Positions 7,862 through 30,800 of a stretch of 46,442 bases of DNA are shown one piece after another. A program made the position numbers and the translations under genes. The notes beneath the pieces were generated by a model, which had not been told where the DNA came from, made no database searches, and saw only the letters and a program-made list of their open reading frames with translations. Each line of letters begins with the position of its first letter. Within the stretch, counting starts at the first letter, position 1. Source of the stretch: a virus; the IMG/VR virus record IMGVR_UViG_3300025892_000038, positions 1 through 46,442 of that record; one strand, given 5' to 3'.

Positions 7862-10800
7862 ATGGCTAAAGACGCATCGATAAAGGTGATGCTTGAATTT
7901 CAAGCAAACAACGCATCACTATCAAAAGCAACTAAAGGTATAGCTAATGAGCTTAGTACCCTTCAGCGTAAAACCGCAACAGTAGCGTCATCCATGACTT
8001 CTTTCGTACCAGCATTCGCTGCAGTTGGTGCAGCAGCCTTTTCAGCTTTTTCATTCGCAGGTAGAGCAGCAGTACAATTTCAAGACTCATTTGCAGGTGT
8101 TAGAAAAACATTAAATTTCTCAGGTACTGCAGCAAAAAATCAAGAAGAAAACTTTAGAGCTTTAGCTGATTCCTTAGTTGACATATCAAGAACAACACCT
8201 ATGGCTGCAAATGAACTTGCAAGAATAGGTGAAATTGGTGGTCAGTTAGGTATATCAGCTGGTGCTATTACAAAATTTACAAAAACTATATCACAACTTA
8301 CTGTAGCAACAACAATGTCAGCAGAGGAAGCTTCCTTTGCTTTGTCAAGACTTGCAGCTATCACTAGACTACCTGAAAGAAATTTAGGTAACTTAGCTTC
8401 TGTACTTGTTAGATTAGGTAACGAGTTTGCAGCTACTGAAGGTGAAATAGTGAATACTGCAATGAAGATTGCTTCAGCTTTAGAGCTACTTGAATCACCT
8501 ACTTCAAATGCAGCAGCAGACTCATTAGCTTTAGCAGCAGCATTAAAACAAGTTGGTCAGCAAACACAAGCTGGTTCTACTGCGGTTGCTAGGTCATTAG
8601 ACATTATGGCTACTGCTGTACTACAAGGTGGTAGGGAGCTTTCATTATTTGCAAAAGTAGCAGGAATGACATCAGACACGTTTAGGAACCTCGCGGAAGC
8701 ATCTCCAGCACAAGCTTTCGTAGCTTTCTTAGAAGGATTACAAGCAGTTGGTAATGCTGGTGCAGATACAGTTCAATTATTAGAAGAATTAGGATTAGGT
8801 CAGCAAAGAACATTAAGAGCTTTACGTTCTATGGCTTTAGCTTCAGATGATGTTAAAGATGCTTTAAGTTCAGCTAACGAAGAGTTTGCTTTAAATAATG
8901 CTTTACAAACAGAAGCAGAAAAAAGATATGAAACAGTTGTTTCTCAATTAGGAATGCTGAGAAATAATATTACAGCTTTAGGTATAGAGACTGGTAATCA
9001 ATTACTAGAACCACTTAATGAAGTTATTGATGGATTGACAACAATTGCTGGTGGTACAACATCTGATGAGTTAAAAAGAATAGTTGCAGGATTTGCACTT
9101 ATGGCAACTACCTTAAATGGAGTAATGGTTGCCAGAAAAAAAATGTTACAACTTAATCAAGTTGCACAAGGTAGTGGACTTATGGGAACTGGTGTCGATG
9201 GAAGTATTAGTTTTCTTGGTGATGCTTTACCTGGTCCAAAAGAATTACTACATAGAAGAAGAGCTAGAAAAATTCAAGGTAGAGGTGGTTCAACATTTAA
9301 TAGAAAAGATTTTCTTGCTCAACAAGCAGGAATGGGAAGACAAACTAGAGGTTTTGAAAACATATTAAAAAATGCAGACGTAATGGATGTTGATGTATTT
9401 GATGCTCAAGCTAATCAAGCTTTGTTGGATAAAACAGGTGGATTTACAGACCAAGCACCTGAAGATGTTAGATTTTTAGGAGCTGATGGTACAGAAAAAT
9501 CATTAAGTGGTGCAGAGCAAAATAGATTGGGATTGTTGCAGGCTATGAATCAAGAAACTGTAAAACAATCTAGTGAATTAATTAAAATACAAGATTTAGA
9601 GTCTTCAATAGCAGAATTAAAACAAGAAGCACTAGGTTTTGCTGAAGAAGCAAATGTATTATCAAAAGATGAAGCTGCTACTAAGAAAAAAGACCCAGAT
9701 AAAATTAAAAACATAAGTGATGGTATTAGTGACACACTAAAGGAATCAAGCAAAGTAGATTTTGGTGACGATGAGCAGAGCTTTAAAAGAATACAAAAAT
9801 CTGCTGTGGACTACAATGTTGCATTACAAAGCCTTGCTGAAGCTGAAAATAGATTAATTACAGCTGAAACTGAGTTAAAAGGTGTAAAAGAAATAGGAAC
9901 TGCTGACTATACCAAACAATCACAGGCTGTACAAAATGCCAAAAATGATGTTGATGAGTTTACAAATTCAGTTGAAAAAACAGGTGAAACATTAAAAGAT
10001 AATATTAAGGAAATAGATGGAAATGGTGTTGAAATAGATGCTTTAGCAAAAGATTTAAACGGTTTAGTCGATGAATATGAGGGTGTTGAAAATGCATCAA
10101 GTAAAGTAACAGCACAACAAAGAGCTGATGCTGAAAAAGCTCAAGCTTCTCTTACTGAAACAACTGCAAAAATTAATGAACAAGAACGAGAATTAAGAGA
10201 ACTTCAAGCAACTTCAGCACAGGGTGGCTTCGTAACACAAAGTGTTGGTGCAAGTTCTGGAATATTGGGACCAGACCCTGCAAAAACAGATACTGCATTT
10301 AGAAGCGTAGGAAATAGCATAAAAGTCCTTGGTGGAAATATGACTGTATTTGGTAATGAAACCCAAAAAACAGCAGGAGTATTTAAATCTTTCTTAAGAA
10401 CATTATTTATGAGTAGGAAACAACTTTTAGCTAACAGTCAAGCTGTTGTAGCATCTGCTAATTCAACAACTGCTATGAAAGTTGCTACTCAAGGTTTAAC
10501 AAATGCCATGATTGGTCTAAAAGCAGCAACAGTATCCTTGCTTGCTTCTCTTGGAGCAATGGTTGCATTTGGTGCAATTATGGGTTATCTAATGAAGTTG
10601 TGGGAAAATGCCAAAAAAACATCTGCAGCTATTAGAGAAATTGGTGATGAGATTAAAGGTGTTATAGACCTACAAGATGAATTAGTATTTAGCAATCTGC
10701 AAAGAGGTTTAATAGAAGATGCTTTAGCAAATGAAATGAAAAAGAGAAGTCCAGACCAAACATTAATTAAAACATTTCAACAACAATTATCTGATATGGA

Positions 10801-13800
10801 TGAAGGTATTAATCAAGCTAAATTTAATATAGAAGAAAATATGGCAGAAATTGGTAAAGCCTTATTACTTGAAACAACAGAAGATGGTGTAAACGTTGAA
10901 GCAAGATTAGAAGGTATAAATAGAGCATTAGGTGATACATTTGATTTGAATGAATTCTTTGTCGAAGTAGGAAAACAGATAACTGATTTTGAATATGCAA
11001 CTACTAGAACATTATTAAGAACATTACAAAATTTAGAAGAAACCCAAGATGAAATAGATAGTTTAAGAGCTGGTGGAGCTACAGCTGCAACTAGCCCAAG
11101 GTTAAAAGAATTAGAACAAGAGATTGCAGTATTTGATGTACTTAGAGAAATACAAAGACAAACAGGAGATGAATTTGAAGATTTCTTAAAAGGTACTGGA
11201 GATGTATTCGGTAAGAACTTTCAGGATACTTTCTCAGGTTCAATACTAGGTGGTGAGGGTGCATTATCTGACAATATTTCTGGTAGTTTAACTGAGAGAT
11301 TTGGGTTAAGTTTTAAAGAATTGGAAGATGGAAGTGTTGGAGTATTTCAAGCAATAGAAGAAGGCTACACAGATATGTATGGAAATATTGCAAGTGTAGC
11401 ACAGGAACCAATAGCTGTACTAGCGGCTGATACTTTCCTAGATGCAGATAAAAACCCAGTAGATATGGATAAAGTGTTAAATGACTTATCTGCATACATA
11501 ATTCTTGCAGAAACTCTAAGGTCTCAAGCAACTGGTAAAAAAGCTGCAAGCTTGGCTTCACAAAATTCTACTTTTATACAAATGCAAAATGAAGGCTTAA
11601 TTAAACAAATGCAATTCTTAAAAGCTAATGGTGTAATTATGCAAGATGTTGACCCTCATAAAAATAGGGCAAGAGCTATTCAAATGGTGAGTAATGCTAC
11701 TAGAGTTTATCAAAATCAACAAATACAGAAAGCTCAACAAAGTGCTAATTCATTAGGAATACTTGAGTTCCAAATGAGCAAATTTGAAAAAGCTCTTAAT
11801 GAAAGTCTTCAAAGGTCAGCAGGTACTTTAGCAAGTGTATTTTCAGAAATACCTATAACAGTTAGAAAAGGTGTTGATGAAATGTTAAACGAAATGGTTA
11901 TAAAAGAAGCTAGACTTAAAAACTTCCAAAATGATATAAAAAGACTTTCAAGTATTGCTCCTATGTTAGCTAAAAACTTAGCTGACCAAGGATTAGCTGC
12001 TAGACAAATGTTAACTGACTTATTATCAGACCCAGTTGCAGCATTCTCAATGGAAGCCTCAATGAATAGAATTGCACCTTTCCAAGCTGAAAAATTAGGT
12101 TTAAGTGAAGAAGAAATCGAGAGAATGCAAGATGCTGGTCTTAGATTAGGTGACTCAGCTTCTGAAGGTATTATTGTAGGTATTCAAAATAGACAAGCTG
12201 AATTAGAAAAAGTATTAATTAGTTCAGTTAAAGGTGCAATTGACGCAACAGCATATTACATAAAAGAAGGTTCTCCATCTAAATTAACTATGGAAAAGCT
12301 TGGTGAACCTATTGGTCAAGGTATTGCATTAGGTATTTCAAATGAAGAAGACGGAATTGCAGGAGAACTTGTTCGTGTTGTAGAGAATGCAATCGAAGAA
12401 ACAGAATTACTTTTAATGGAAACAAGTGAAGGTATTTCTGAACTTACAAGAGCACTTACAACCATGTTTGCAGTTACAGCTGGTAAAAGAGCATTAACTG
12501 CTGCTAATTATACTGTTCAAAAATCTGAACAAGCTCTTATGGCTACTAGAAGAAAGAATGCAACCTTACAGGAAAGAATCACAAAGAATCAAATAGCTCT
12601 TCAAAAAGCAGAACTTGAAGGTAGAAAAAATAATATAACTATGTCTGAAGAAATGAACATTCTTCAACAAAAAGTTGCAATAGATGAAATGAAGAGAACT
12701 ATGAGTGGTAAGAAAACTGCTTCTGAAAGAAAAGCTATTGCAAATGCTGAAAAAGAATTGGAAGAGTTAAGACTTGCTGCAGAGGCAGGAATTGTAGATA
12801 CTTTAGATGTAGAAGTTGCTGAAGAAAAACTTGCTGACTTAAAAGGTACTAACAAATCTATTGAAGAGCAACGTATTGAAATATTACAACTTGCTGAAGC
12901 TGAAAAGAAATTACAAGAAACAGAAAAAGAAGCTAGAGAGGTTGACGAACAACTAATTTCTTTAAGAGAAGAAAATATTAAGTTACTTGATGAAGCTGCT
13001 AATAAATCATTTGAATTACAAACTGCTTATGATAATTTAGAAGCATCAACTGAAGGTGTATTTAATGCAGAAATGAAGTATGCAGAAGCTAGAGATAAAT
13101 TTGATAAATTTGTTAAAGCTTCACCTGACTTATTCGCTGCACTAGTCGAAGGATATGGTGGTGTAGGAAGCACTATAGATGCTATTACAACTAAAACTCT
13201 TAACTTAGTAAATAAAACTGAAACTGGTGCTGATAGAGCAGTTCTTGCACTACAAACAATAGTCACTGAGGCTAATAAAACTGCTGCACATTTGACATCA
13301 TTAGATTTATTAGCAGATACACGTTTTGAAAGTGCACCACAAGAAGCAATGGATATGAGAAACACAGTTGGTACTGCAAAAGAATTTTTAGAAATATTTA
13401 GAGGAACTCCTTTGGAAGGATTAATAAATAATTTCAAAGGTATGTCAGCTACAGGTTCTGGTAGAACATCGGCTATGGATAGGTCAGTATTCAAAGATAT
13501 AGATGACTTTATGGCTTCAGAGCAAGCACTTTCAGATGCAAGAGCAGGTAAAGATATTACTTTTAGTGATTTTTCAAGAGCTCTTCAATCTTATTTAGGT
13601 GTTGCAACAAATGTTGATACAGCAGGTAATATAAACTTCGCTGAAGACCAATTAGAAGGACTAGGTATTGCTGATACAGCTGGAGTTGCTCAGGCTAAAG
13701 GAACAATAGGTAATCAAAACTTTGGAACAGCTGTATTGGGAGCCAGTGGTGATTATTTGACTGGCGAAATGAATGACTTATCAAGATTGGCACCTAATGA

Positions 13801-14434
13801 AAGAATAGAATACAACTACTCTATGTCTCAGGCTCAACAAAAGAAATTAGGTTTTACTCCTACTACATATGACGTAACAAATATAAATGATTTAGTAAAA
13901 TTGTTTAATAGAGCTACTGGAACTAGTGGAAACAGTGAAGAAAAAGTATTGGAAGCATTAGGCATGAAAGGTCTTCCAGGAAAACTTGGAGACCCTAGTA
14001 AAACAATAACAGAAACTGGTAGGGAAATGTCAACTTCCCTTGACCACTTACATGTATTTCAAAGAGATAGAAATAAGCAAAATTACAAAGATACACTTTT
14101 AGGTAATGTTTCCAAATTATTAGATACATTAGGAGAGGGTAGATACGAATATCTATTAAAGAGAAAATATGGTGGTGGTATGAAGCCATTTCAAAGAGCA
14201 CTTGTTGGTGAGTACGGACCAGAAATGGTAACTGCTTTACCTCAAGGTGGATTAAGAGTAACACCTCAAGGTTCTGAAAGAGGTGGTAGTATTAGTATCA
14301 ATAGTTTGAATGTAAACGTAACGGGAGTACCTACTGACCCTGTACAAGCAAGAAAAGCTGCTGTACAAATACAAAAGGCTTTAGTCAAATTAGATAAAGA
14401 AGGTGTTTCTGGTACAGGATTGTCGAGGAGATAA
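7862..14434 (+). CDS. Tape measure protein
   Basis: The 2190-residue product is the longest ORF after the tail chaperones and sets tail length. The N-terminus is typical: Ala/Ser-rich hydrophobic stretch at about residues 43-70, then FQDSFAGVRKTLNFSGT and the TTPMAANELARIGEIGGQLG motif of the TP901-type core. Long coiled-coil regions follow, with charged helices near residues 560-800 and 1540-1720. A hydrophobic membrane-like segment (VSLLASLGAMVAFGAIMGYL) lies near residue 890, as in tape measures that insert into the host membrane. A compact end with KYGGGMKPFQRALVGEYGPE is typical of the C-terminus. No lytic or peptidase motif was seen. AGGA at 7857-7860 lies only one base before the ATG, so translation is probably coupled to the frameshift product ending at 7858. 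Confidence 0.93.
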   Translation: MAKDASIKVMLEFQANNASLSKATKGIANELSTLQRKTATVASSMTSFVPAFAAVGAAAFSAFSFAGRAAVQFQDSFAGVRKTLNFSGTAAKNQEENFRALADSLVDISRTTPMAANELARIGEIGGQLGISAGAITKFTKTISQLTVATTMSAEEASFALSRLAAITRLPERNLGNLASVLVRLGNEFAATEGEIVNTAMKIASALELLESPTSNAAADSLALAAALKQVGQQTQAGSTAVARSLDIMATAVLQGGRELSLFAKVAGMTSDTFRNLAEASPAQAFVAFLEGLQAVGNAGADTVQLLEELGLGQQRTLRALRSMALASDDVKDALSSANEEFALNNALQTEAEKRYETVVSQLGMLRNNITALGIETGNQLLEPLNEVIDGLTTIAGGTTSDELKRIVAGFALMATTLNGVMVARKKMLQLNQVAQGSGLMGTGVDGSISFLGDALPGPKELLHRRRARKIQGRGGSTFNRKDFLAQQAGMGRQTRGFENILKNADVMDVDVFDAQANQALLDKTGGFTDQAPEDVRFLGADGTEKSLSGAEQNRLGLLQAMNQETVKQSSELIKIQDLESSIAELKQEALGFAEEANVLSKDEAATKKKDPDKIKNISDGISDTLKESSKVDFGDDEQSFKRIQKSAVDYNVALQSLAEAENRLITAETELKGVKEIGTADYTKQSQAVQNAKNDVDEFTNSVEKTGETLKDNIKEIDGNGVEIDALAKDLNGLVDEYEGVENASSKVTAQQRADAEKAQASLTETTAKINEQERELRELQATSAQGGFVTQSVGASSGILGPDPAKTDTAFRSVGNSIKVLGGNMTVFGNETQKTAGVFKSFLRTLFMSRKQLLANSQAVVASANSTTAMKVATQGLTNAMIGLKAATVSLLASLGAMVAFGAIMGYLMKLWENAKKTSAAIREIGDEIKGVIDLQDELVFSNLQRGLIEDALANEMKKRSPDQTLIKTFQQQLSDMDEGINQAKFNIEENMAEIGKALLLETTEDGVNVEARLEGINRALGDTFDLNEFFVEVGKQITDFEYATTRTLLRTLQNLEETQDEIDSLRAGGATAATSPRLKELEQEIAVFDVLREIQRQTGDEFEDFLKGTGDVFGKNFQDTFSGSILGGEGALSDNISGSLTERFGLSFKELEDGSVGVFQAIEEGYTDMYGNIASVAQEPIAVLAADTFLDADKNPVDMDKVLNDLSAYIILAETLRSQATGKKAASLASQNSTFIQMQNEGLIKQMQFLKANGVIMQDVDPHKNRARAIQMVSNATRVYQNQQIQKAQQSANSLGILEFQMSKFEKALNESLQRSAGTLASVFSEIPITVRKGVDEMLNEMVIKEARLKNFQNDIKRLSSIAPMLAKNLADQGLAARQMLTDLLSDPVAAFSMEASMNRIAPFQAEKLGLSEEEIERMQDAGLRLGDSASEGIIVGIQNRQAELEKVLISSVKGAIDATAYYIKEGSPSKLTMEKLGEPIGQGIALGISNEEDGIAGELVRVVENAIEETELLLMETSEGISELTRALTTMFAVTAGKRALTAANYTVQKSEQALMATRRKNATLQERITKNQIALQKAELEGRKNNITMSEEMNILQQKVAIDEMKRTMSGKKTASERKAIANAEKELEELRLAAEAGIVDTLDVEVAEEKLADLKGTNKSIEEQRIEILQLAEAEKKLQETEKEAREVDEQLISLREENIKLLDEAANKSFELQTAYDNLEASTEGVFNAEMKYAEARDKFDKFVKASPDLFAALVEGYGGVGSTIDAITTKTLNLVNKTETGADRAVLALQTIVTEANKTAAHLTSLDLLADTRFESAPQEAMDMRNTVGTAKEFLEIFRGTPLEGLINNFKGMSATGSGRTSAMDRSVFKDIDDFMASEQALSDARAGKDITFSDFSRALQSYLGVATNVDTAGNINFAEDQLEGLGIADTAGVAQAKGTIGNQNFGTAVLGASGDYLTGEMNDLSRLAPNERIEYNYSMSQAQQKKLGFTPTTYDVTNINDLVKLFNRATGTSGNSEEKVLEALGMKGLPGKLGDPSKTITETGREMSTSLDHLHVFQRDRNKQNYKDTLLGNVSKLLDTLGEGRYEYLLKRKYGGGMKPFQRALVGEYGPEMVTALPQGGLRVTPQGSERGGSISINSLNVNVTGVPTDPVQARKAAVQIQKALVKLDKEGVSGTGLSRR

Positions 14435-15780
14435 TGGCACATAAAGTACATATTGGTAGATTATCATTTACATCACCTGGTTCTATAAATTTTGATTCAT
14501 CTGATGGTGGAAGAAATTTAAGTTTTAGAGGTAAAATTGGTGGTGTAGAAATAACGCTTGACCATATTAAATATATTAGAGATGAATTGGTTTCTATTGC
14601 TGCTTATGGATTAACTGTACCATTTAGATACGACGGCGATTCAAGTTATGATGGATATGTTAAAGTTAACTCTAGTTCTGTCAGTACTCAAAGATATCAA
14701 CGTGGAGGTTTCAGCTATAGTGTAGATTTAGAATACTTAGGTCGCTCAGGCGAAGTAGTATTTGAATCAAGGTTTACTGGTGCTTTGCTAGATAATGACC
14801 ATAGTGTTACAGCTACTACAAATCAATTTCATGCAAGTCCAGGTAATCATTATAACTACTATCATCCTTCAGAACCTACTGATGGTACTAGATTAGCTAA
14901 TGATGAAACAAGTACTGCTATTGGTGCTTCAACAACTTTAAGATTAAAAACTGATAATAATTTAAGAAACTCTAATGCAACATTTCATGTTGAACCTGAA
15001 GATTTTTATAAAGGTGCTTGTCTAATTAAAACAGGTACATACGATAGTGGATTTACTTCTAGCAATAATGTACAAACAATGAGTGACACTGCTAATGAAG
15101 TCAGGTGTGGTTTATTCTCATCAAACAAACCAACAGCTCTTACTTTAGAAAATGGTTTAATAAAAATACAATTTAGTGCTTCGACTACCCAAGCATTATT
15201 TACAAGCTATATCTATGATGTATCAGATTATCAATCTAGTAAAGATTGGGTTTTCTCTAAAGGTACACCAACAGGCTCTGAACAATTAGGAGATAATTGG
15301 TTAGGCTGGAGAACTATGCAAATATTAAAAAATCACCCAGAATGTGCAACAGTAAGATGTACTACCTATCTTAATGCTGATAGTAAAGATGGAAGATTAG
15401 TAGTAGATTTTACATTGCGTAGAGGTTCTCATCATGTTTCTATTGTTGCGAATCAATATACATCTAGTAGATTTAATTTATCTTTAGCAACAGCTTCAGG
15501 AACAAATGCTTCAACAGGTACGGGATATATTTATGACGGTACTTCTAGTCCAGAAGATGGTAATAAATGGTTATTAGGAAGTCCTGATAGTGCAGCTTCA
15601 TCTGCACAATTTGATTTAGCTAGAGAAATGTTATATAAAACAGGAGCACAAATGAAAGCATACATAGGTTATGAACTTGCACAAGAAAATGGAAGTATAA
15701 ACACTGCTGATACAAGAGACTCTGTAAGAGACCAGTATTTAGATAATGTTTACGAATATCAAAAATTAGTTAAGTCATAA
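14434..15780 (+). CDS. Minor tail protein, possible distal tail protein
   Basis: A 448-residue beta-rich protein placed right after the tape measure, where siphophages carry the distal tail protein that forms the ring at the tube end. The first 125 residues are the most conserved-looking part (HIGRLSFTSPGSINF ... KIGGVEITLDHIKYIRDEL) and resemble the N-terminal domain of such proteins. The rest is Ser/Thr/Asn-rich with alternating strands, possibly a carbohydrate-binding or decoration domain. It begins and ends in TAATG overlaps. Distal tail identity is by position and shape only. Confidence 0.65.
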   Translation: MAHKVHIGRLSFTSPGSINFDSSDGGRNLSFRGKIGGVEITLDHIKYIRDELVSIAAYGLTVPFRYDGDSSYDGYVKVNSSSVSTQRYQRGGFSYSVDLEYLGRSGEVVFESRFTGALLDNDHSVTATTNQFHASPGNHYNYYHPSEPTDGTRLANDETSTAIGASTTLRLKTDNNLRNSNATFHVEPEDFYKGACLIKTGTYDSGFTSSNNVQTMSDTANEVRCGLFSSNKPTALTLENGLIKIQFSASTTQALFTSYIYDVSDYQSSKDWVFSKGTPTGSEQLGDNWLGWRTMQILKNHPECATVRCTTYLNADSKDGRLVVDFTLRRGSHHVSIVANQYTSSRFNLSLATASGTNASTGTGYIYDGTSSPEDGNKWLLGSPDSAASSAQFDLAREMLYKTGAQMKAYIGYELAQENGSINTADTRDSVRDQYLDNVYEYQKLVKS

Positions 15781-16469
15781 TGGCAGTAACAGAAAAATTA
15801 ATGGCTCAGGGTTCATTTAATTTACAATTAGATTATAACAAATTACCCAACTCAGTTTTAAACTCAATAGATGCTTGGGACCAAATAGTAATAACACCTT
15901 CAAGAGTTACAGAAGATGAACTTAATGATGCAGCTATGCTTACATCTTCTGAATATGTTGGTGTAGTAAAATCACTTGGTCTTGGAGATGATGCAGTAGA
16001 TATAGAAGGTGCTGGATTAGGAACTTATTTAGGAGACGGTGGTAGTCGTGGTATGCCTATTTCTGACCAAGGTGACATATCAAATATGAGAAGTTTTGAA
16101 AATAAATCTTTACAATTTGTTTTAGATAATAAAGATGGAACACCTTATGGAATATTGAGAGATGGTAGAGACGGTGGTCTTAGAAGTATAAGACCTGGCA
16201 CAATAACAAATCCAACACAAGAAAGCACTGATTTACTTTTAAATTTTGAAGGCATAGATGACAGCGTAACAACTACTGACGCAACCTCAAAAAAACATGA
16301 TATAAATTTTTATGGTAACGCTCACATAAGTACAGACCAAAGTAAATTTGGTTCTACATCTTTAGAATTAGACGGAGATAGAGACTATTTAGAAGTAGAC
16401 TACTCTTATCACTTTCAATTTGAAGCTGAAGACTTTACTGTTGAGTGGTGGGAGTATAGGGTTGCGTGA
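15780..16469 (+). CDS. Tail hub N-terminal part with first half of a split LamG-like domain
   Basis: This 229-residue ORF starts as a tail hub protein (residues 1-145, VTEKLMAQGSFNLQLDYN ... SLQFVLDNKDG) and from about residue 150 becomes the first half of a concanavalin/LamG-like domain: TDLLLNFEG, then SKFGSTSLELDGDRDYLEV and FTVEWWEYR. It stops abruptly at TGA followed at once by TAA (16467-16472). The second half of the same domain is found about 1.3 kb downstream inside the next ORF, which is in the same reading frame. The pair therefore looks like one ancestral hub gene interrupted by an insertion. The two products may assemble together in the tail tip. Confidence 0.75.
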   Translation: MAVTEKLMAQGSFNLQLDYNKLPNSVLNSIDAWDQIVITPSRVTEDELNDAAMLTSSEYVGVVKSLGLGDDAVDIEGAGLGTYLGDGGSRGMPISDQGDISNMRSFENKSLQFVLDNKDGTPYGILRDGRDGGLRSIRPGTITNPTQESTDLLLNFEGIDDSVTTTDATSKKHDINFYGNAHISTDQSKFGSTSLELDGDRDYLEVDYSYHFQFEAEDFTVEWWEYRVA

Positions 16470-16475
16470 TAAGTT

Positions 16476-19400
16476 ATGCCACAATTTGATTTAGCAAATG
16501 CAAATGTAAGCTCTAGTGGTTTTACAAAAATTAAAAACAGAATAGGTTTTGTTCCCTTTGTTTATGACACAGGATATCCAAATTTAGGTAGCTACATTGA
16601 TAACGACCCCATACCTTCTGGTTCATCAATATATGCAGAAAGTGTAGGTGGTAGAGTACCATTTGACCCTGACTTTCATAATGGTGTTAGAGGTAATTTA
16701 GTTGTAGGATATGGACACACATATAGAAATGAAGGAGCACAATGGAGAGGTTCTGATGCTCTTTTTTATGATTTTTATTCAGTAAAAGAAAACGCTAACG
16801 ATTCAAATTCGACATCATTTACTATAAACAGTGTAGATTATGCGTTTCCAATACAAAAAGGAGATGTATTTGCTACAACTGATGATGGTGGTAAATACTT
16901 AGATGCTTCTAATACTGTAATAACAAAAGGTATAAGAATCAAATATATTGGTGATGATACTTCAACTACTAATCAAAGGTTCTCAGAATCAATAGCAAGT
17001 ACTCTACTAAGCGAAGATTTAATTGGTTATAAGAATAAAGTTATTTCAGTTTTTACAGGTTATGAAGATTCTTTCCCCTATGACAACACATTAGCTCAAG
17101 AACATTTTGATATGATGGTGGGTTTGTGTTTTGCTATAGGAAAAAGTGCTTTTGAAAATACATTTTTTGTAAATAGATATAAATTAGTTGATGGAACATC
17201 AGTAACTCAAACAAGTCACTTAACTGCTTATAATGATGCTGGTTACGCTCTAATGTTTTTAGGTGGTAAAGCAAAACCAAGTGATTATCCAAATGGTGAC
17301 GCTAGTTCAGCAAATAATTTAATATTGGAACACTATGAACCAATTTTAGTAAATGGTGTAAAACTTACTTGGGAAAATGTATTCCTTTGGGACCCTGCGT
17401 TAATAAAACAAAGACAAGGTGATATTGATGAATTATTAGGTTCTAACAGCTCTGTTAATCCAACAGCAACTCCTTTGAATCCAGTAACTAATTCACAATG
17501 GTATCAAGGTCCTCCAATACCAGAAGATTTTTTTATGGCTAGACCAAATGCACCTGCTTGGTCTGATGTCGTAACATCTACATTACCTTCTGGTTCTGTT
17601 AGTAATACAATATTAGAACTACTAACTCAAGGCAGAGAAGATGAAATACCACTCTATTACACTGGAGACGCATCTATTTATGACACAGACCCAGGAAATG
17701 AAAACTATTGGGAAGAAGACCCATTTTATCAAAAAGCTTATTCTGCCTTTTGGCAAATAAATAATAGATGGTACAAAGGAAATCAAACTTTTATCGCACC
17801 TAGAGCTAAGTCAACAAATGGACCTGCAATTGCTGCACAAGGAGATGGTTCAGTTCCACCTTATATTTTTGGTTTAAATAATGGTTCTGGAGAGCTAGGA
17901 GTATATATAACTAGTACTAGAGCTGAAAGCACTATTGATGGCATTACAGGAATAGATAGCACAATTTGGGATATTGCTGACGGTGTAAAACTAGGTGATG
18001 TTTCTAATGGTCAATGGGTACATAGAGCAATAACTAGAAAAGGTAATAAATTTACAACATGGGAGAACGGTACTTTAGTTTCTCAATGGACCTCTGATAA
18101 GACTATTAAGAGAGTCACTAGAGATGCAAAATCTAGTGGTAGCGATGAAAAAGCATCTATGAATCTTTCTATAGGAAGGAGTCAACATGCGGATTACTTT
18201 AAAGGTTATATCGATTCATTAAAAGTTACTAAAGGTGAAGCTTTATATGATGCTAATTTTACACCTTCTACATCTGCTCCTACAATCGACAACACTTCAA
18301 ATAGTTATACAGGACTACACAATGTTGAATCTGTATACAATGCTTTGAAAAAGATAATGTCTCAGATGGATACAGAATATAAAGTTACTAATGAAGGCAA
18401 AATAGATGCAGGACCTAGAGAAAATTTATTTGTCGGTCATGGAACTAATGACCCTCTTGCTATTATTGTAAGAGATTCTTCAGGTGAAGACCCAGGTATT
18501 ATTGGTTTAAATCCTGATGCTTTGACTACACAGTTTGAGGCTGAAGATTGGGTATCTGGTGTCGAATATCTAAAGAATGTCGGTTCTGATGGTCAAAACA
18601 TAGACTTAGTAGAAAGATTTTTAACAGATGTACCTTATTATGATTTATTTGGTAACCCTTTAGAAAGAGTTGCATATGTCAACGAACAAGATACAAATGC
18701 TCTAATGGCACCAAAGAGAGCAGAAGCTTATTTAGATGAGTTTACAAGAGTTAAAAAATCATTGTCATTATCACTTGAATACTATGACATAAAAGGAGAC
18801 TTTGAGGTTGGAGATAATATATTTGTTTACGACCCTGAAGTTGGTTTTGTAGATGACTTAACAAAAGCTATTGCTGATGGTAGAACAGCACCTTATGAAG
18901 CTATATGGCAGGGTCAATATATAAATCCTGAAAAAATAAGAATTATTGGTATTACTTATCCTATTGAAGATAGCTTTGGAGTTTATTTAAGAAAAGTAGT
19001 TAACAGAAATCCTTATACAGTCAGATATATAGATTTATCAGATTATGTAATATTTGAATCAGGTAATACTTCGCTTGATGTAGGAGATTTAGGAAAGCAA
19101 ATAGGAGATGACTTAAGATTTTCTAATCAGTTATCTGGTACTACTACTGGTAGAACAGAATATAAACCTGGAAAAGTTATCGACCCTGATGATTTGAGTT
19201 CAGAAGGTATTAGAACTACAACTAGTTTTTACACAGATGCTTTAGGTACTCAGCAATCTATTATATTTATAGAATGGAGAACTCCTAGAAATACAAGCGG
19301 TACTGTTATTGAGAATGGTCTACATTATGAAATATCTGTAGAGCCTGTAAACCCTGCTTTAGGTGATGCTACTAAATACTTTGTACAATGGGGTAACGAA

Positions 19401-20507
19401 ACATTTACTGTTGAAGGTTTACAAAAGGCTACTGATTACAAGGTTGGTGTTCAAGCAGTAACTACAGGTGCAGCTTCTGGATTTGTATACGAAACAATTA
19501 CAACAGCAGTTGACTCAGTACAGCCTAATAAACCTGCACAAGCTACAACTATTGCAACTATACAGGGTGCAGTACAGATAATACATCATTTAGGTGCAGC
19601 AACAGATGATTCAGGTAATCCAGTAGGTACAGTAGTAAACTTTACGTTACCTTCTGATTTATCTTACTTAAATGTTTATGGTTCTACTACTTCTGGTTTT
19701 ACAGTTGCTGAATCAACTAAATTAGGAAATATACCGTGTGACGCTTCTTTTCTTAGATTAAGTATTCCAGCAGTAGCAACACTAAAAGGAGAGTCTTTAG
19801 ATAGTTCAGCAACTATGTTCTTTAGATTTACTGCAGTAGATAATGCTGGTAATGAATCAGACCCTTCTGATGAGCAACAAGGAAATGCAGACCTAGTCAA
19901 AACTGCAAACATAGACGATGCAGCTATAACAAGTGCAAAGATACAAAACTTATCAGTAGGAACAGCAAAGATTGCTGATGCAGCTATATCAAATGTCAAG
20001 ATTGGAAATTTAATTGAATCTGATAATTATTCAACTGGTACTTCAGGTTGGTCAATACAAAAATCAAATGCTACATATCCTGATGGTTTTATAGAAATAA
20101 ATGATGCTTTAATAAGAGGTAACATAACTGCTACAACAGGAAACATTGGTGGTTGGTCAATAGCTAGTAACAAACTAACTGCTGGTAACTTAGAACTAGA
20201 TGCTGGTAATACAACTATTAAAGGTAATTACTCTGCTGGTTCTTCTGGATTTAGTTTAAATAATGATGGTTCTGTTGAATTTAACAGTGGTACTTTTAGG
20301 TCAGATGTTGTTGGTGGAACATTGACTATAGGTGCTAGTGATAAATACGATAATACAACTGATACAGATATTTTTGTAGTTGATGAAAACGGTAACTTAT
20401 ACCTTGGACATCATACTCTTGGTAACGCACCATTTTCTGTAACTAATAGCGGTGACCTCGTAGCAACTTCTGTTACAATTACTGGAGGAGAATTACACAT
20501 AGGATAA
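16476..20507 (+). CDS. Tail hub/tip protein with lysozyme-like insertion, LamG half and FN3 domains
   Basis: The 1343-residue product has clear sections. Residues about 16-325 look like a GH24 (T4-type) lysozyme: FVPFVYD, GYGHT at 78-82, a FDMMVGLCFAIGKSAF helix, and LIKQRQGDIDELLG. The position of the catalytic Glu (F-E-G motif) is Ile23. Residues 325-435 are unassigned. From N436 (QTFIAPRA) to about 600 lies the second half of the LamG-like domain that begins in the previous ORF. Residues 600-850 resemble a tail hub core, about 945-1120 two fibronectin-III-like domains, and 1143-1180 the NIDDAAITSAKI / AKIADAAISNVKI shaft motif found in lambda J-type tips. No good ribosome site precedes the ATG; reinitiation after the TGA-TAA stops is likely. 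Confidence 0.8.
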   Translation: MPQFDLANANVSSSGFTKIKNRIGFVPFVYDTGYPNLGSYIDNDPIPSGSSIYAESVGGRVPFDPDFHNGVRGNLVVGYGHTYRNEGAQWRGSDALFYDFYSVKENANDSNSTSFTINSVDYAFPIQKGDVFATTDDGGKYLDASNTVITKGIRIKYIGDDTSTTNQRFSESIASTLLSEDLIGYKNKVISVFTGYEDSFPYDNTLAQEHFDMMVGLCFAIGKSAFENTFFVNRYKLVDGTSVTQTSHLTAYNDAGYALMFLGGKAKPSDYPNGDASSANNLILEHYEPILVNGVKLTWENVFLWDPALIKQRQGDIDELLGSNSSVNPTATPLNPVTNSQWYQGPPIPEDFFMARPNAPAWSDVVTSTLPSGSVSNTILELLTQGREDEIPLYYTGDASIYDTDPGNENYWEEDPFYQKAYSAFWQINNRWYKGNQTFIAPRAKSTNGPAIAAQGDGSVPPYIFGLNNGSGELGVYITSTRAESTIDGITGIDSTIWDIADGVKLGDVSNGQWVHRAITRKGNKFTTWENGTLVSQWTSDKTIKRVTRDAKSSGSDEKASMNLSIGRSQHADYFKGYIDSLKVTKGEALYDANFTPSTSAPTIDNTSNSYTGLHNVESVYNALKKIMSQMDTEYKVTNEGKIDAGPRENLFVGHGTNDPLAIIVRDSSGEDPGIIGLNPDALTTQFEAEDWVSGVEYLKNVGSDGQNIDLVERFLTDVPYYDLFGNPLERVAYVNEQDTNALMAPKRAEAYLDEFTRVKKSLSLSLEYYDIKGDFEVGDNIFVYDPEVGFVDDLTKAIADGRTAPYEAIWQGQYINPEKIRIIGITYPIEDSFGVYLRKVVNRNPYTVRYIDLSDYVIFESGNTSLDVGDLGKQIGDDLRFSNQLSGTTTGRTEYKPGKVIDPDDLSSEGIRTTTSFYTDALGTQQSIIFIEWRTPRNTSGTVIENGLHYEISVEPVNPALGDATKYFVQWGNETFTVEGLQKATDYKVGVQAVTTGAASGFVYETITTAVDSVQPNKPAQATTIATIQGAVQIIHHLGAATDDSGNPVGTVVNFTLPSDLSYLNVYGSTTSGFTVAESTKLGNIPCDASFLRLSIPAVATLKGESLDSSATMFFRFTAVDNAGNESDPSDEQQGNADLVKTANIDDAAITSAKIQNLSVGTAKIADAAISNVKIGNLIESDNYSTGTSGWSIQKSNATYPDGFIEINDALIRGNITATTGNIGGWSIASNKLTAGNLELDAGNTTIKGNYSAGSSGFSLNNDGSVEFNSGTFRSDVVGGTLTIGASDKYDNTTDTDIFVVDENGNLYLGHHTLGNAPFSVTNSGDLVATSVTITGGELHIG

Positions 20508-22155: not shown

Positions 22156-22376
22156 TGACACACGAATATAAGATAGTCGACCCATTAGAGACTGAAAGTA
22201 CAGAAGAAAAGTTGGACAAACTTTATATACAAATTCATGCACTAGAAAAGCATCACTTAGTTTTAGATGCAATTGAGTCACCTAATGAAGAAGAGACAAC
22301 TGAAATTGAGGCTATCGAATCTCAATTAACTTCACTTATCAGTGAATACGAAGGACTAGGTGGAACTTTCGATTGA
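22155..22376 (+). CDS. Small acidic coiled-coil protein
   Basis: A 73-residue protein that begins in a TAATG overlap with the S74 fibre. It is acidic, with two helices suited to coiled coil (TEEKLDKLYIQIHALEKH and TTEIEAIESQLTSLISEY). It may assist fibre folding or be a minor fibre component, in line with similar small coiled-coil genes at 23158 and 23352. No family recognised. Confidence 0.65.
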   Translation: MTHEYKIVDPLETESTEEKLDKLYIQIHALEKHHLVLDAIESPNEEETTEIEAIESQLTSLISEYEGLGGTFD

Positions 22377-23131
22377 AATTTTCTTTGGGAGGCAAACAAT
22401 CTATAGAGTTTAAGACCGATGTTGTAGGTCTTGAATCAATTTCTCCTGTTCAAAAATCTAATCATTTTGTACCTCAGTGGTTTAAAAATATGGATGATTA
22501 TATTGTAAGACAACCAAATCCAGAGGGAAGAGTACCTAATGCTTTTGGTAAGAAAAAGAAAACTGCTAAAAAGTTTAGTGGTGGAACTGTAAAAAGATGT
22601 CCTGCAATAATAGACTTGATAACTGAGGGGTTTATCATACCAATGTGGTCTGATTTTCTAATCCAAAGAAATGATACTCTTCTTGAATGGGATAACAAAA
22701 ACTTTCCATACGGTATTGAATTTCATAGTAAAGAACAAATAAGTCACTGGAAACTTAAAAAAACAGATTTTCCTGAAGGTGTTAAGTTTGTAAATCCATG
22801 GCGTATATATACTCCACCAGGTTATTCAGTTTTATTTGTAGCACCATTTTACGAATTTGAAAAAAGATTTACTGTACTACCTGGGATAGTTGAAACTGAC
22901 TCATATCACCATGTAAACTTTCCAAGCATAATACACACAAATCAAGATTTAATAATAGAAAGAGGAACTCCCTTTATACAAGTAATTCCTTTTAAAAGAG
23001 AAAATTGGGACTTCGATGTATCACGAATGACTGAAAAAGACATTGATGATGATACAACTCATAAAAATCATTTAAATACTAAATTTAAGAACGCATACCG
23101 TTCAATTACCTCTAGTTTCAATAACTCATAG
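22373..23131 (+). CDS. Unknown protein, family copy 1 of 3 (possible DUF6065)
   Basis: This 252-residue protein starts at a TTG that overlaps the upstream TGA; AGGTGGA at 22358-22364 supports it. It shares four blocks with the products at 38699 and 40825: a Cys-Pro block followed by an aliphatic-Trp run (KRCPAIIDL, FIIPMWSDF), NPWRIYTPPGYSVLF, LPGIVETDSYHHVNFPS, and GTPFIQVIPFKR. The conserved His, Asp, Cys and aromatic residues suggest an enzyme or ligand-binding fold with beta strands. I think it may belong to Pfam DUF6065 but could not check. It is the only copy among the fibre genes; the other two lie in the enzyme island 16-18 kb away. Confidence 0.7.
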   Translation: MKFSLGGKQSIEFKTDVVGLESISPVQKSNHFVPQWFKNMDDYIVRQPNPEGRVPNAFGKKKKTAKKFSGGTVKRCPAIIDLITEGFIIPMWSDFLIQRNDTLLEWDNKNFPYGIEFHSKEQISHWKLKKTDFPEGVKFVNPWRIYTPPGYSVLFVAPFYEFEKRFTVLPGIVETDSYHHVNFPSIIHTNQDLIIERGTPFIQVIPFKRENWDFDVSRMTEKDIDDDTTHKNHLNTKFKNAYRSITSSFNNS

Positions 23132-23618: not shown

Positions 23619-24814
23619 TGGCTATACAAACAACACATAATGGTGCACAGCGAATTGCTGGTTCTACTGATTATAATGACCATGTATTTAGTCTTGATTC
23701 AAATGGAGACCCTTATGGCTATCAAGTTTCAAATGCAATAGTTCATATTGACGACACCACTGTTGATGGTAATGGTGACGAAATTGGATACAATCTTTAT
23801 TTAGACGCACAAACAATGGTTACTGACGGCTCGTTAGTAATGGGTACAATAGCTTCAAAAGAATTATATTTCGCTACAGACGGTACTATACATGCAAAGT
23901 TTACTACTGATGGTTACTTTGATTTATTAAGTTCAAAACTTAAATTAAATGGTAACTCTGGTGCAGCTAACCAAGTAATGAAATCTGATGGTTACGGAAA
24001 TTTAAGTTGGACAGATTTACCGAATCAACAACAAGCTTTTGGAAATATCGTTGTAACAGGTGAAGATACCATACAAGCAGATGCTACTGGAGATACCCTT
24101 AATTTAGTAGCTGGTTCAGGTATAAGTCTTTCTACTAATGGAGGTACTGATACCTTGACTATAAGTGCTTCTGGTGGTGGAGCAGCTGAAGCATTTAAGA
24201 ACATTATTGCTGGTGGTAGCACAATGATTGCTGATAGTAGTTCAGATACACTTACTTTAGTTGCTGGTTCAAATGTTACAATAACTTCAGACTCTACAAC
24301 TGACACCATAACAATTGCTGCAAGTACAAGTGGTGATGTTAACCAAAGTGCTTTTACTCAAGTAGCTTCTACAAATCAAAATACTATACAAGCAAATGCT
24401 GAAAGTGATACCTTGACAATTGATTCTGACGATGAAAGCACTTTAGATACTAGGTATAAAGCTGACCGTGACCAGATAGATATAATAACCGATACTTCAA
24501 CAAAAACTGTTAAAGTGAACAGTAAAGTACCTAAGACTTTATCAATGGTTGGTAAAGCACCCGTAGTTACCAAACTAGGAGAAAATTCTGGAGTGCCTTT
24601 AAGAAATAAATTTTTTAATGTTGCTACCTCAGATGCTGTTTCTGGAAATGGTGGATACGTAGGTGTCAGTACCAGAAGTCTACCTTTATTACAAAGCTCA
24701 GGTTCTGTAGTAGACATACTTATGCCAGCAAAAAGTGATAATTCAACTTTACAACTTACATACTTAGATAGCTCAGGTACAGAAGACATAATAGACATGG
24801 AAGTAGCTGAATAA
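23618..24814 (+). CDS. Tail fibre protein with three internal beta repeats
   Basis: The 398-residue product has an N-terminal domain (residues 1-135) similar to attachment regions of marine phage fibres, followed by three copies of a roughly 50-residue unit that begin at F141, F193 and F246. Each runs F-x-N/Q-I/V ... T-I-x-A-D/N ... DTL-x(1-4)-AGS-x-I/V-x(3-4)-T/S-x(4)-D-T-L/I-T-I, which fits a triple-stranded beta shaft. The last 90 residues are different and may be a tip or assembly domain. Joined to neighbours by TAATG overlaps on both sides, so likely translated together with the giant fibre that follows. Confidence 0.8.
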   Translation: MAIQTTHNGAQRIAGSTDYNDHVFSLDSNGDPYGYQVSNAIVHIDDTTVDGNGDEIGYNLYLDAQTMVTDGSLVMGTIASKELYFATDGTIHAKFTTDGYFDLLSSKLKLNGNSGAANQVMKSDGYGNLSWTDLPNQQQAFGNIVVTGEDTIQADATGDTLNLVAGSGISLSTNGGTDTLTISASGGGAAEAFKNIIAGGSTMIADSSSDTLTLVAGSNVTITSDSTTDTITIAASTSGDVNQSAFTQVASTNQNTIQANAESDTLTIDSDDESTLDTRYKADRDQIDIITDTSTKTVKVNSKVPKTLSMVGKAPVVTKLGENSGVPLRNKFFNVATSDAVSGNGGYVGVSTRSLPLLQSSGSVVDILMPAKSDNSTLQLTYLDSSGTEDIIDMEVAE

Positions 24815-27800
24815 TGGCAGAAAAAACGCCAGTAAGAGTTAATTATGACGGTAGTAATAACGCTATCGGTTTTGCTGAATTTCAAGCAGCAGATTTTATA
24901 GGTATAGATGATGGTGGTACTGGTGCGGTTACTGCATCTGGTGCAAGGACTGCACTAGGTATAGAAATTGGCGTAAACGTACAAGGTTACGACCAAGACT
25001 TAGCAACAATAGCAGGACTATCTCACGCAGATGGTGCTTTTATTGTTTCAAATGGTTCTGCATGGACTGTCGAAAGCGGTGCAACAGCTAGAACTTCTTT
25101 AGGATTAGGCACATCTGATACAGTCACATTTAGTGGTTTATCTGTTACCAATAATGTAACAATCTCAGGTAATTTAACTGTTGATGGTACACAAACAATT
25201 CTTAATACTGAAACATTAACAGTAGACGATAACACAATAGTCCTAAATAATAATGTAACTGGAAGTCCAACTGAAAATAGTGGAATTGAAATCGAGAGAG
25301 GAACATCAGCTAATAAATCATTACTATGGGACGAAACAAATGATTACTGGACAGTAGGAACAGATACCTTTGTTGCTGCAACATTTGAAGGAAATTTAAC
25401 TGGTAATGTTACTGGTACAGTATCTGACGTAAGTAATCATGATACAGATGACATTGCTGAAGGCTCATCAAATCTGTATTACACAACTTCTCGTTTTGAC
25501 ACAGCTTTTAGCGGTAAAGACACAGATGATTTAACCGAGGGTTCAACTAATTTATATTACACCGATACAAGGGTCGGAACTTATCTGACAACAAATAGTT
25601 ATGCTACACAAACCTATGTAGATAGTGCAGTAGCTTCTGAGAATGAATTAAGTGAGATGAACGATGTTACACTTACTAACTCTCAAAATGGTGATTTTTT
25701 AAGATATGACGGTAGTGTTTGGATTAATGATGCTGTCAATTTATCTACAGATACTATAGGTGACTACATAGAAAGTATAACTGGTGGAACTGGAATCTCT
25801 ATTGATGTCACTTCAGGAGAAGCTCAAACACCTACATTAGCAATTGACTTTAGTGAGTTTGATACTGGAAGTATTACAGAGGGAAGTAACCTCTACTATA
25901 CAAGTGCAAGAGCAGATGCTCGTATAGCAGCAGCTAGTGTTGGAGATTTATCAGATGTAACTTTAACTTCTACTGCTACAGGTGATATTCTTAGATACAA
26001 CGGTTCAGCATTCATAAATGAACCACTTAATCTAGGAACAGATACTGAGGGTGCATACGTTGCAAGCCTTGTTGCTGGAACAGGTATAGACCTTAGTAAC
26101 AACACTGGAGAAACAGCAACACCAACTATTACAGTTGACTTAGGTGACTTTAGTACTACTGACTTAGCAGAGGGAACAAACCTTTATTACACAGATGCTA
26201 GGTGGGATACCAAAATGGCAGCAGCAGACACTGGAGATTTGTCTGAAGGTTCTAATCTTTATTACACTACTGCAAGATTTGACACAGCTTTTACAGGTAA
26301 ATCTACAACAGATTTATCAGAAGGAACAAACCTCTACTACACAACAGCAAGATTTGATACTGCGTTTAGTGGTAAAGATACGGATGACTTAACAGAAGGT
26401 AGTACAAACCTTTATTTCACCTCAGAAAGAGTAGATGATAGAGTTGCTGCATTATTAGTAGATTCTACATCAAGTGGAATAGACATTAGCTATGACGACA
26501 CAAACAATCAATTAACTTTAACTGTAGACCTACCAGAAGTAGAAGATGCTTTAGAAGACATCGTAAATGGACTTGTAGTTGGAGGAACAGGAATAACATC
26601 TACTTATGATGACACTGCTGGAACATTAACTTTAACCATACCTCAAGAAGTAGGAACATCAAGCGATGTAACTTTTAATCAAGTTACTGCTGACTTAGTT
26701 GGTAATGTTACAGGAAACGTCACAGGAAACGTTACAGGTGACTTGACTGGAGATGTTACAGGAGATGTTACAGGTAATGTAACTGGTAACACAGCTGGTA
26801 CACATACAGGTGCAGTCACAGGAGATGTCACAGGAAATGTAACTGGTAATCTTACTGGTAATGTAACAGGTGATATTACTGGAAACGTTACAGGTGATTT
26901 AACAGGTGATGTTACTGGAGATGTAACAGGAAACTTAACAGGAAACGTAACTGGCAATGTAACAGGGAACGTAACTGGTACTGTTTCATCTATAACAAAT
27001 CATGATACAGACTCTCTCACAGAGGGTTCTACTAATCTTTATTATACCGATACAAGAGCTAGAGCTTCTGTTTCTGTTACTGATTCTGGAGGAGATGGTT
27101 CACTTTCATATGACAACTCGACAGGAGTTATAACATATACTGGACCATCTGCTTCAGAAGTCAGAGCACACATATCTGGTGGTACTGGTGTAACAATTAC
27201 ATCAGGTGAGATTGCAATAGGTCAGTCTGTAGGTACAACTGACAATGTAACATTTAACAATATAGATGCAGACGGAAACGTAGTTATCGATGGTAACTTA
27301 ACTGTATCAGGAACAACAACATCTGTTAACACAGAGACAATAGAATTAGCAGATAATGTTATCCTTCTTAACTCAAATGCTACAGGTAATGCTTCTCAGA
27401 ATGCAGGTATTGAGATTGAAAGAGGCGATGATAGTAATAAGACATTAGTTTGGAATGAGAGCACAGACAAGTGGTCTGTAGGTAGTGAGACATTTGTAGC
27501 AGGGACTCTTGAAGGAGCTTTGACTGGAAATGTTACAGGTACTGTTTCAGATATATCTAATCATTCGACTTCAGACTTATCTGAGGGAACAAACCTCTAT
27601 TATACAGATGCTAGAGTTTCAGCTTACCACACAGGTGGAACTGGAATAACATATAGCTCTGGAACGATAAGCATAGATTTCTCTGAGTTTGATACAGATA
27701 GTATGAACGAAGGTTCTACAAACCTTTACCACACTGCTGCAAGAGCTAGAACATCATTATCTGGTAGTACAGGTATAACTTACGACAACAGCACTGGTGC

Positions 27801-30800
27801 TATAAGTATTGATGGTACTGTAGCTACATTAACTGACACACAAACCTTAACTAATAAGACAATAAATTTTGAAGATAACACAGCAATTATTGAATATGCT
27901 GTAACAGTATCTAATGCTTCTGGTAGTAATAAATATTACTTAGACGGACAATTAGCAAGTACTGTACAACTAATTCCAGGAGTAACTTACAGATTTGATA
28001 CATCAGACTCATCAACATCTGGTCATCCATTTGCTTTATCAGAGACTAAAGATGGTTCACACAATAGTGGTTCTAGTTACACACAAGGTGTTACAACTAA
28101 TGGCTCACAAGGTTCATCGGGCTCTTATTTACAAATTGTTATAGATGGAATGACACCTAACTTGTATTACTACTGTACAGCACACTCTGGTATGGGTAAT
28201 GATGGAATGCTTAGAACTAAGATACAAGATACTGATGATGTATCAGAAGGTTCTAATAACTTATACTACACAGACGCTAGAGCTCAAGCTGCAATTACAG
28301 GTAGCACAGGAATAAATGTTTCATCTGGTGCAGTATCTATAGATAGCACAGTAGTAACAGAAAGCTCTACCGATACACTTACAAATAAAACAATAAACTT
28401 TGAAAACAATACTGCAATTATAGAATTCGCAGTCACTGTTGCTAACTCTGGTAGTGGAAATAAATACTACTTTGATGGCGAAGAATCAGCAAGTATCCAA
28501 TTAATACCTGGAATTACATATAGATTTGATTTATCAGATGGCTCTACATCAGGACATCCACTTGCACTATCTACAACAAAAGATGGTACACACGCTAGTG
28601 GTAGTTCTTATACAACTGGAGTTACATCAAATGGTTCACAAGGTTCATCAGGTGCTTATCTACAGATAGTTGTAGATGCTGCTACTGCTGACTCACTTTA
28701 TTATTACTGTACTGCTCACTCAGGAATGGGTGGAAATGGTGTTATATCTGTACAAGGACTTTCTTTAGCAGACAGTACTACTGATGATTTATCAGAAGGT
28801 TCAACTAATTTATACTACACCACAGCTAGATGGGATACTAAGATGGCTTCTGCTGACACAGATGATTTGTCAGAGGGCTCAACCAACCTTTATTATACAG
28901 ATACAAGAGTTGGTTCATACTTAACAACTAATACATACGCGACACAAAGCTATGTAAACACACAAGTTTCAAACTTAGTAGATTCAGCACCAGGTACTTT
29001 AGATACACTTAATGAATTGGCAGCTGCTTTAGGAGATGACGCAGACTTCTCTACTACAGTAACAAATAGTATTGCAACTAAATTAGCCAGTGCTGACTTT
29101 AACTCAACCTTTGATACACAATTAGCTACAAAAGATACAGATGATATTAGCGAAGGTTCTACAAATCTTTATTACACAAATGCTAGATTTGACACACAAC
29201 TTGGAACTAAAGACACCGATGACCTAACAGAAGGTAGCACTAATCTTTATTATACTGACGCAAGAGCTGATGCAAGAATAGCTGCTGCAAGTTTAGGTGA
29301 CTTATCAGATGTAACAGATAACGCAAGTTCTTTTGGAGAGATACTAAGATATACTGGTTCTTCTTGGTCAACTTCTGACCAATTAACTGGAATTAGTAAA
29401 CTCAATTTATTAAGCACCGATGCAATGCTTTCATCTACCAATAAAGATGTTGTCTTTAGAGTTAACCCTACATCTGCTACAACAGGTGACTTCGTAGACC
29501 TTACTTTTGAAAGTGATGGTAACTCAACTGGAATAGTAGAGTTTGCACAGATTACAGTAGACGCTGTAAACATAGATGACAATGGTGGTAATGCAGAAGG
29601 TGCAATAAAGTTCAAAGTAGCTAAAGATGCTGCACTTGACGAAATCGCACAAATTACAAAAGACGGAATACTTTTACGAGATGGTAAGACACTTACATTT
29701 GAAGGTGCTACTGATGATGCTTTTGAGACTACATTAACTGTTACTGACCCTACAGCAGATAGAACAATTACATTTAAAGATGCTACAGGAACAGTAGCAT
29801 TAACATCTGATATTCCTAGTGATACAGACGGACTAACAGAAGGTTCATCAAATCTTTACTATACAGATGCAAGAGCAGACGCAAGAATAGCTTTAGCTGA
29901 CTTACAAGACTTAGCTAATGTTGGATTCTCTACACCAGGAGCAAATGAAAATCAAAAGGTTGTTTCATGGGATAACAGTGCAGGAACATTTGTTTTGTCT
30001 TCAGTATCTGGTTTATCAGGTTCTGGTGAAACTAACACAGCTTCCAATGTTGGAACTGCTGGTGTTGGAGTATTCAAACAAAAAGCTGGAGAAGACTTAG
30101 AGTTTAAGAAAATAAATGCAGGTTCTGCAAAAATTACAGTTACAGATGATACTTCTAATAATGAAGTAGATATAGATTTTGGAACAGTATCTATAGATGA
30201 CTTAAGTGATGTTGATACTACAAGTTCAGCACCTTCAAGTGGTCAAGCTCTTAAATGGTCTGGTTCTACATGGGAACCTGGAGATGCTAGTTCACAAGTA
30301 GCACAATTAACAGATGTTACTCTAACTTCATTAGCTTCAGGAGAATTCCTTCAATATAATGGTAGTGCTTGGGTTAATGTTGTTCCTGATACAGACGATA
30401 TAACAGAAGGTACTGGACAATTATTTTTTACTAACGCAAGAGTTGATGCAAGACTTTCTGGTGGAACTGGTGTTACATATAACGCTGGAGCAATATCTAT
30501 TGGACAGGAAGTAGCTACAACATCTGATGTAACCTTTAATGACTTAGTAGTATCTGGTGACTTAACAGTTTCTGGTACTACAACTTCTGTAAATACAGAA
30601 ACAATTAACTTAGCTGATAATCAAATCGTTCTTAATTCCAATGCAACTGGCTCTGCTTCAGAGAATGGTGGTATTGAAATTGAGAGAGGTGATGACACTA
30701 ACAAGACACTTATTTGGAATGAAAGTACAGACAAGTGGACAGTTGGCTCAGAGACTTTTGTAGCTGGAACATTTGAAGGTAATGCTACAGGTATTACAAC

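Follow-up and report, generated by a model that had tools for sequence, protein, structure and literature searches.

Two-chain tail-tip hubs with a peptidoglycan hydrolase gene between the hub genes are already known. In phage lambda, hub domain I (HDI) resides in gpL and HDII-IV in gpJ, with the HDII-insertion domain spread over both chains; RcGTA gp13 and gp15 are divided likewise, and the order L-K-I-J resembles the order 13-14-15 (PMC10721106). Lambda gene K carries a C40 peptidase annotation, and RcGTA g14 encodes a peptidoglycan peptidase (PMC7296036). In R4C the order is distal tail protein, hub (attachment domain at residues 1-141, then an oligosaccharide-binding domain), peptidase and megatron (PMC10276861). 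A two-chain hub is predicted for Jersey, and the hubs of LSH1 and T5 are single-chain (PMC13243795). The viral locus described here follows the same plan and is distinct in that a hydrolase-like domain is fused to the second chain, a LamG-like domain is shared between the chains, and close relatives are unsplit. The analyzed DNA, hereafter the window, is IMG/VR record IMGVR_UViG_3300025892_000038 over its full 46,442 nucleotides. Its two open reading frames (ORFs) of interest are A (15780-16469, 229 residues) and B (16476-20507, 1343 residues); all features given below are on the plus strand. We consider it probable that A and B are separate chains of one siphophage tail-tip hub, which co-assemble and rebuild the LamG-like domain between them.

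The original prediction held that one LamG-like domain is divided between these ORFs by a lysozyme-like insertion, and its ORF coordinates, the TGA-TAA-ATG junction and the single frame of A and B are all confirmed in the window. Behind the N-terminal part of A (residues 1-144, 15780-16211), the first LamG part occupies residues 145-229 (16212-16466) and ends FTVEWWEYR-VA. The TGA stop of A (16467-16469), an in-frame TAA (16470-16472) and GTT then lead to the ATG of B at 16476. B has an invariant MPQF start and opens with the lysozyme-like domain (residues 1-325, 16476-17450), followed by a linker (326-435, 17451-17780), in agreement with the roughly 320 and 110 residues predicted for these segments. 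The second LamG part (B 436-610, 17781-18305) resumes where it had been placed, residue 436 beginning NQTFIAPRA.

Both parts align to non-overlapping, consecutive stretches of the first LamG domain in Synechococcus phage S-SKS1 AGH31521. Separately they score 75 bits (A part) and 50 bits (B part), and the joined sequence (A 136-229 plus B 433-612) yields one 98-bit alignment to the contiguous LamG at AGH31521 residues 23-227. Four PHROG profiles give the same consecutive placement. On phrog_24074 the A part covers profile positions 412-492 and the B part 542-629; joined, they form one stretch over 412-629 (104.7 bits), and two stretches are needed when their order is reversed. The Pfam family Laminin_G_3 matches B 439-585, and the A part alone has no Pfam match. 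With a cut-off of 27.6 bits, Laminin_G_3 gives 25.2 bits for the B part within the whole ORF, 35.6 for the excised B part and 33.1 for the joined sequence, which scores no better than the B part alone but begins its match earlier in the profile. By sequence profile over the whole domain, the joined parts belong to the LamG/concanavalin A-like lectins. Judged by these alignments, the stretches in A and B are parts of one domain, which answers the concern that the halves might be unrelated domains.

Relatives were gathered from IMG/VR using four alignments and one single protein. The same junction occurs in 26 other contigs (27 including the window), a recurrence well past what chance would give, and in 28 sister contigs (L039-L068, leaving out L067 and the fragment L061) the hub is a single unbroken ORF. 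The comparison with uninterrupted hub genes that had been proposed for this locus could thus be made: the single-chain sisters lack the LamG-lysozyme block. In them YTGKHYTES, the equivalent of B 611, comes only a few residues after the sequence around A residue 145 (TITEP), and neither LamG nor lysozyme is found at that place. A lysozyme profile search of twelve loci and the window frames returned nothing besides B itself. Because the sister chain runs from about A residue 145 into about B residue 611, the LamG-lysozyme block reads as a nested insertion in the hub; A 1-144 is continuous with B 611 onwards in the single-chain relatives, to which the hub continuation (B 611-905, 18306-19190) aligns. 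The hub itself therefore appears to be split by the chain break, with LamG lying across the split, in the arrangement hub[LamG[lysozyme]]. The prediction of one LamG over two chains with a lysozyme-like insertion between is upheld by the uninterrupted LamG domains and by the conservation of the junction. It was incomplete in that the whole block is itself inserted in the hub and that two-chain hubs with a shared insertion domain had been described before.

Neither kind of intermediate, a LamG lacking the lysozyme or a block lacking the break, was found among these relatives, and four further scans of viral contigs with different alignments recovered the same two states. EWWEYR runs on unbroken in no locus. 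In a maximum-likelihood tree of the hub parts, whose root is not fixed by the data and whose long branches meet, the split loci group together on a single branch (support 100/100). This grouping indicates a single origin, and within the sample the split appears to have arisen once in the A/B family. The nested structure points to a gain of the block and not a loss.

The opposite direction, in which the split was inherited from a hub of the lambda/RcGTA type and the single-chain sisters are fusions, is in our estimation quite unlikely. The layout is the same: an HDI-type half and a carbohydrate-binding-type domain come first, a peptidoglycan hydrolase follows, and the remainder of the hub comes last. 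However, the insertion point is bridged smoothly in the sister chain, with no LamG or lysozyme remnant, the hydrolase families differ (C40 peptidase in lambda K, T4 lysozyme (T4L)-type here), the shared domain differs, and no sequence relationship to gpL or gpJ was found.

The described systems resemble A/B to varying degrees. As proposed for A/B, lambda gpL/gpK/gpI/gpJ has a hub over two chains and a shared insertion domain, with the peptidoglycan hydrolase gene K between. Unlike in A/B, the lambda hydrolase is a separate protein of another family, and an iron-sulfur insertion domain takes the place of LamG as the domain shared by the chains; the two systems showed no sequence similarity, and the nearest relatives of A/B are single-chain. 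RcGTA gp13/gp14/gp15 and R4C 014/015/016 also pair a two-chain hub with a peptidase gene between. In their first chain an oligosaccharide-binding domain comes after a 141-142-residue attachment domain, and A 1-144 compares in size with the latter (residues 1-141/142); from size and synteny it is probably an HDI-type tail-attachment domain. In contrast to A/B, the RcGTA and R4C peptidases are not fused to the second chain, and the oligosaccharide-binding domain lies entirely in the first. By size and order, the split position in A/B appears to correspond to that of lambda and RcGTA. The separate hydrolase gene that lies between the hub genes in lambda and RcGTA is absent from A/B, where B has the lysozyme-like domain fused at its N-terminus. 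T5 pb3, like the sister contigs, is a single continuous hub running from HDI to HDIV; the sisters represent the unbroken form of the A/B protein, and neither they nor pb3 have the chain break, LamG or lysozyme of A/B. The T4 gp5 tail lysozyme, in the account given by the T5 paper, resembles B in carrying a T4L-type lysozyme on a tail-tip protein with a chain cut adjoining. It is one gene, cut during maturation between lysozyme and β-helix, whereas the A/B cut is genetic and precedes the lysozyme.

The break is ancient, of single origin and selected. A stops 2-5 residues past EWWEYR (A ORF of 229-232 residues where measured), and the B ORF begins MPQF at -1 to +8 nucleotides relative to A, the gaps found being -1, 1, 4, 6 and 8 nucleotides. 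Identity to the window's A ranges from 45 to 97% among the split-form contigs. Pairwise ratios of nonsynonymous to synonymous substitution (dN/dS) against eight relatives are 0.03-0.32 for the hub parts, both LamG parts, the lysozyme-like part and the linker, values that place every segment of A/B under purifying selection. Stops within a domain usually signal decay, and the original prediction had allowed that TGA-TAA might be an assembly error. With an identical break in 27 contigs from independent assemblies and dN/dS well below 1 throughout, a broken gene, whether through sequencing or assembly error or through decay, is barely conceivable; the 26 relatives and the dN/dS values refute it.

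Translation of B appears to be independent. Its ribosome-binding region (ATAGGGTTGCGTGATAAGTT, 16456-16475) lies within the end of A, and its predicted pairing energy with the anti-Shine-Dalgarno (SD) sequence, -9.1 kcal/mol, is one of the strongest when 30 window starts are compared. AGGGAGG precedes B in L001, L002, L004 and L006, and one subgroup has a TAATG stop/start overlap with AGGGAGG within the last codons of A. These features bear on recoding, whereby read-through of TGA-TAA or a frameshift would yield some A-B fusion with lysozyme-LamG as an optional extension. The window ORFs do share a frame, with only TGA TAA GTT between them, as originally predicted. This relationship does not extend across the loci: among the 22 tabulated (including L076), B is in frame with A in four, shifted by 1 in 12 and shifted by 2 in six. 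Because the frame varies, a read-through fusion is not a conserved option. With B out of frame in 18 of the 22 loci, TAATG overlaps in several, two successive stops in the window, no Rfam element found, and an invariant ATG-MPQF start behind an SD-like sequence, recoding is very improbable. An intron was also rejected, as there is no Rfam match and in every relative the inserted block is conserved protein whose reading frame continues through to the second LamG part. General family searches, with no test aimed at either, gave no match in the insertion pointing to an intein or to trans-splicing.

The A/B viruses are a family of uncultured marine viruses of bacteria, and two scans of GTDB genomes found no relative. 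In some relatives B is much longer (1592-1797 residues; L025:7695-12470 and L028:7698-13088) and ends in what looks like a predicted coiled coil (TQNSDLTARIEALEG), indicating that the C-terminus of the tip varies widely.

The lysozyme-like assignment is marginal by Pfam in the window, where Phage_lysozyme (PF00959) matches B 148-254 with E=0.0066 and 17.2 bits, under the curated cut-off of 22.3; the relative L027 scores 24.7 bits, over that cut-off. Foldseek matches the region to the endolysin AbLys1 (E=3e-3). The sites of T4L E11, D20 and T26, aligned by motif and MAFFT to the T4 lysozyme pattern and not by structure, are occupied in the window by I23 (16542-16544), T32 (16569-16571) and V76 (16701-16703). 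The E-D-T triad is kept in 11 of the 22 loci. It is replaced by I/V-T/S-V in the ten-locus clade of the window (100/100 support) and by V-D-R in L037 (7701-8750). On these alignments the window's copy is lysozyme-like and not a canonical active lysozyme, and the triad has disappeared both from the window's clade and, as a separate event, from L037; the domain would have turned non-catalytic at least once and probably twice. Within the window's clade its dN/dS is 0.10-0.26, and purifying selection despite loss of the triad suggests that the domain has another role there. The linker carries a strongly conserved motif, YYTGDASIYDTDPG..YWEEDPFYQ..YS.FWQ..NRWYKG, with no family match. Elsewhere in the window, a DUF5675 protein (44726-45277) with a weak Tlde1-like match may be the phage's candidate lysis gene.

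Structure prediction bears on whether the two chains meet. AlphaFold2 models A alone (34-row alignment) with a mean predicted local distance difference test score (pLDDT) of 51.5; the LamG part reaches 55-68, and the final EWWEYR strand is unformed at 25-35. For a fused read-through of A and B 1-905 (61-row alignment), the mean pLDDT is 65, most of the A portion scores 75-90, and the FTVEWWEYR strand is formed. From this difference chain A seems to need chain B, which points to interdependence and not to contact. Foldseek retrieves concanavalin A-type lectins and a phage endolysin. With chain A alone, whose model is too weak for this comparison, it returns nothing significant; R4C and GTA baseplate entries appear at E ≥1 only, which is no evidence. 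The proposal that two chains rebuild one domain is likely, given the marked rise in the confidence of A with B.

Whether the partners belong to the same A-B pair is a separate matter, and the data fit either arrangement. Hub proteins are trimers in known siphophages, so neighbouring protomers are close, and the fused model does not demonstrate A-B pairing. The A part might instead pair with the B of a neighbouring protomer in a swapped trimer, or with another tail protein. We regard this as unlikely, since the two parts are consecutive in sequence and conserved together, and the A part is poorly modeled without B.

The assignment to a tail-tip hub draws on gene position, domains and relatives. 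A and B follow the tape measure gene (7862-14434) and a 448-residue gene in the distal-tail position (14434-15780), the place expected of a baseplate hub. Downstream of the hub continuation, B matches the fibronectin type III domain fn3 (B 926-998, 19251-19469) and Phage_Tail_Tip PF09327 (B 1163-1223, 19962-20144). Several points weigh against a co-assembling two-chain hub. Identification of A 1-144 and B 611-905 as hub derives from position, the PF09327 and fn3 domains and relatives, and a profile comparison of the hub parts with lambda gpL/gpJ and PDB sequences gave no match. Among cultured phages, matches are limited to LamG parts or C-terminal tail-tip regions, and no cultured member was found. 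The predicted template modeling score (pTM) of the fused model is 0.41, its three-residue link is artificial, and it does not reveal the LamG parts pairing. Foldseek alignments that contain very long gaps have root-mean-square deviations of 30-35 Å.

For the co-assembling hub, the following arrangement can be proposed. Translation of B would start from a ribosome-binding site of its own and be coupled to the end of A, giving similar amounts of both chains. The chains would co-assemble under the distal tail ring, probably with three copies of each. Paired, the two LamG parts would serve both to clamp the chains together and to bind glycans. The lysozyme-like domain, which sits inside the LamG hairpin after EWWEYR and begins at B's own start codon, would hang at the free N-terminus of B on the hub surface. 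It may cleave peptidoglycan during entry in the 11 loci that retain E-D-T, and in the window's clade it may be kept for binding or structure. Such an arrangement could have originated when a lysozyme gene with its own start codon was captured into a LamG. A bolder version, which we put forward tentatively as a possibility short of even chances, is that a lambda/GTA-type hub re-evolved independently in this lineage when lysozyme capture cut the hub LamG, that the rebuilt lectin is an inter-chain clamp holding the hub closed or triggering it when glycan is bound, and that the triad-less lysozyme was kept as part of the clamp.

Other genes of the window were noted in passing. Weak DUF6065 matches occur in three genes (22373-23131, 38699-39511 and 40825-41565), which are possibly paralogues. 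Two adjoining 2OG-Fe(II) oxygenase genes (36059-36790 and 36712-37470) overlap by 79 bases. A giant repetitive virion protein of 2295 residues (24814-31701) has seven phrog_697 stretches and several matches to tail-fibre profiles.

Split and unsplit forms of one tail hub thus stand side by side in closely related phages. Lambda and the GTAs show only the end state, whereas with A/B the route by which phage hubs become two-chain, and the reason for it, can be studied. The locus further provides a lectin-type domain that two chains apparently build together, along with a tail lysozyme which appears to have become a non-catalytic part at least once, probably twice.

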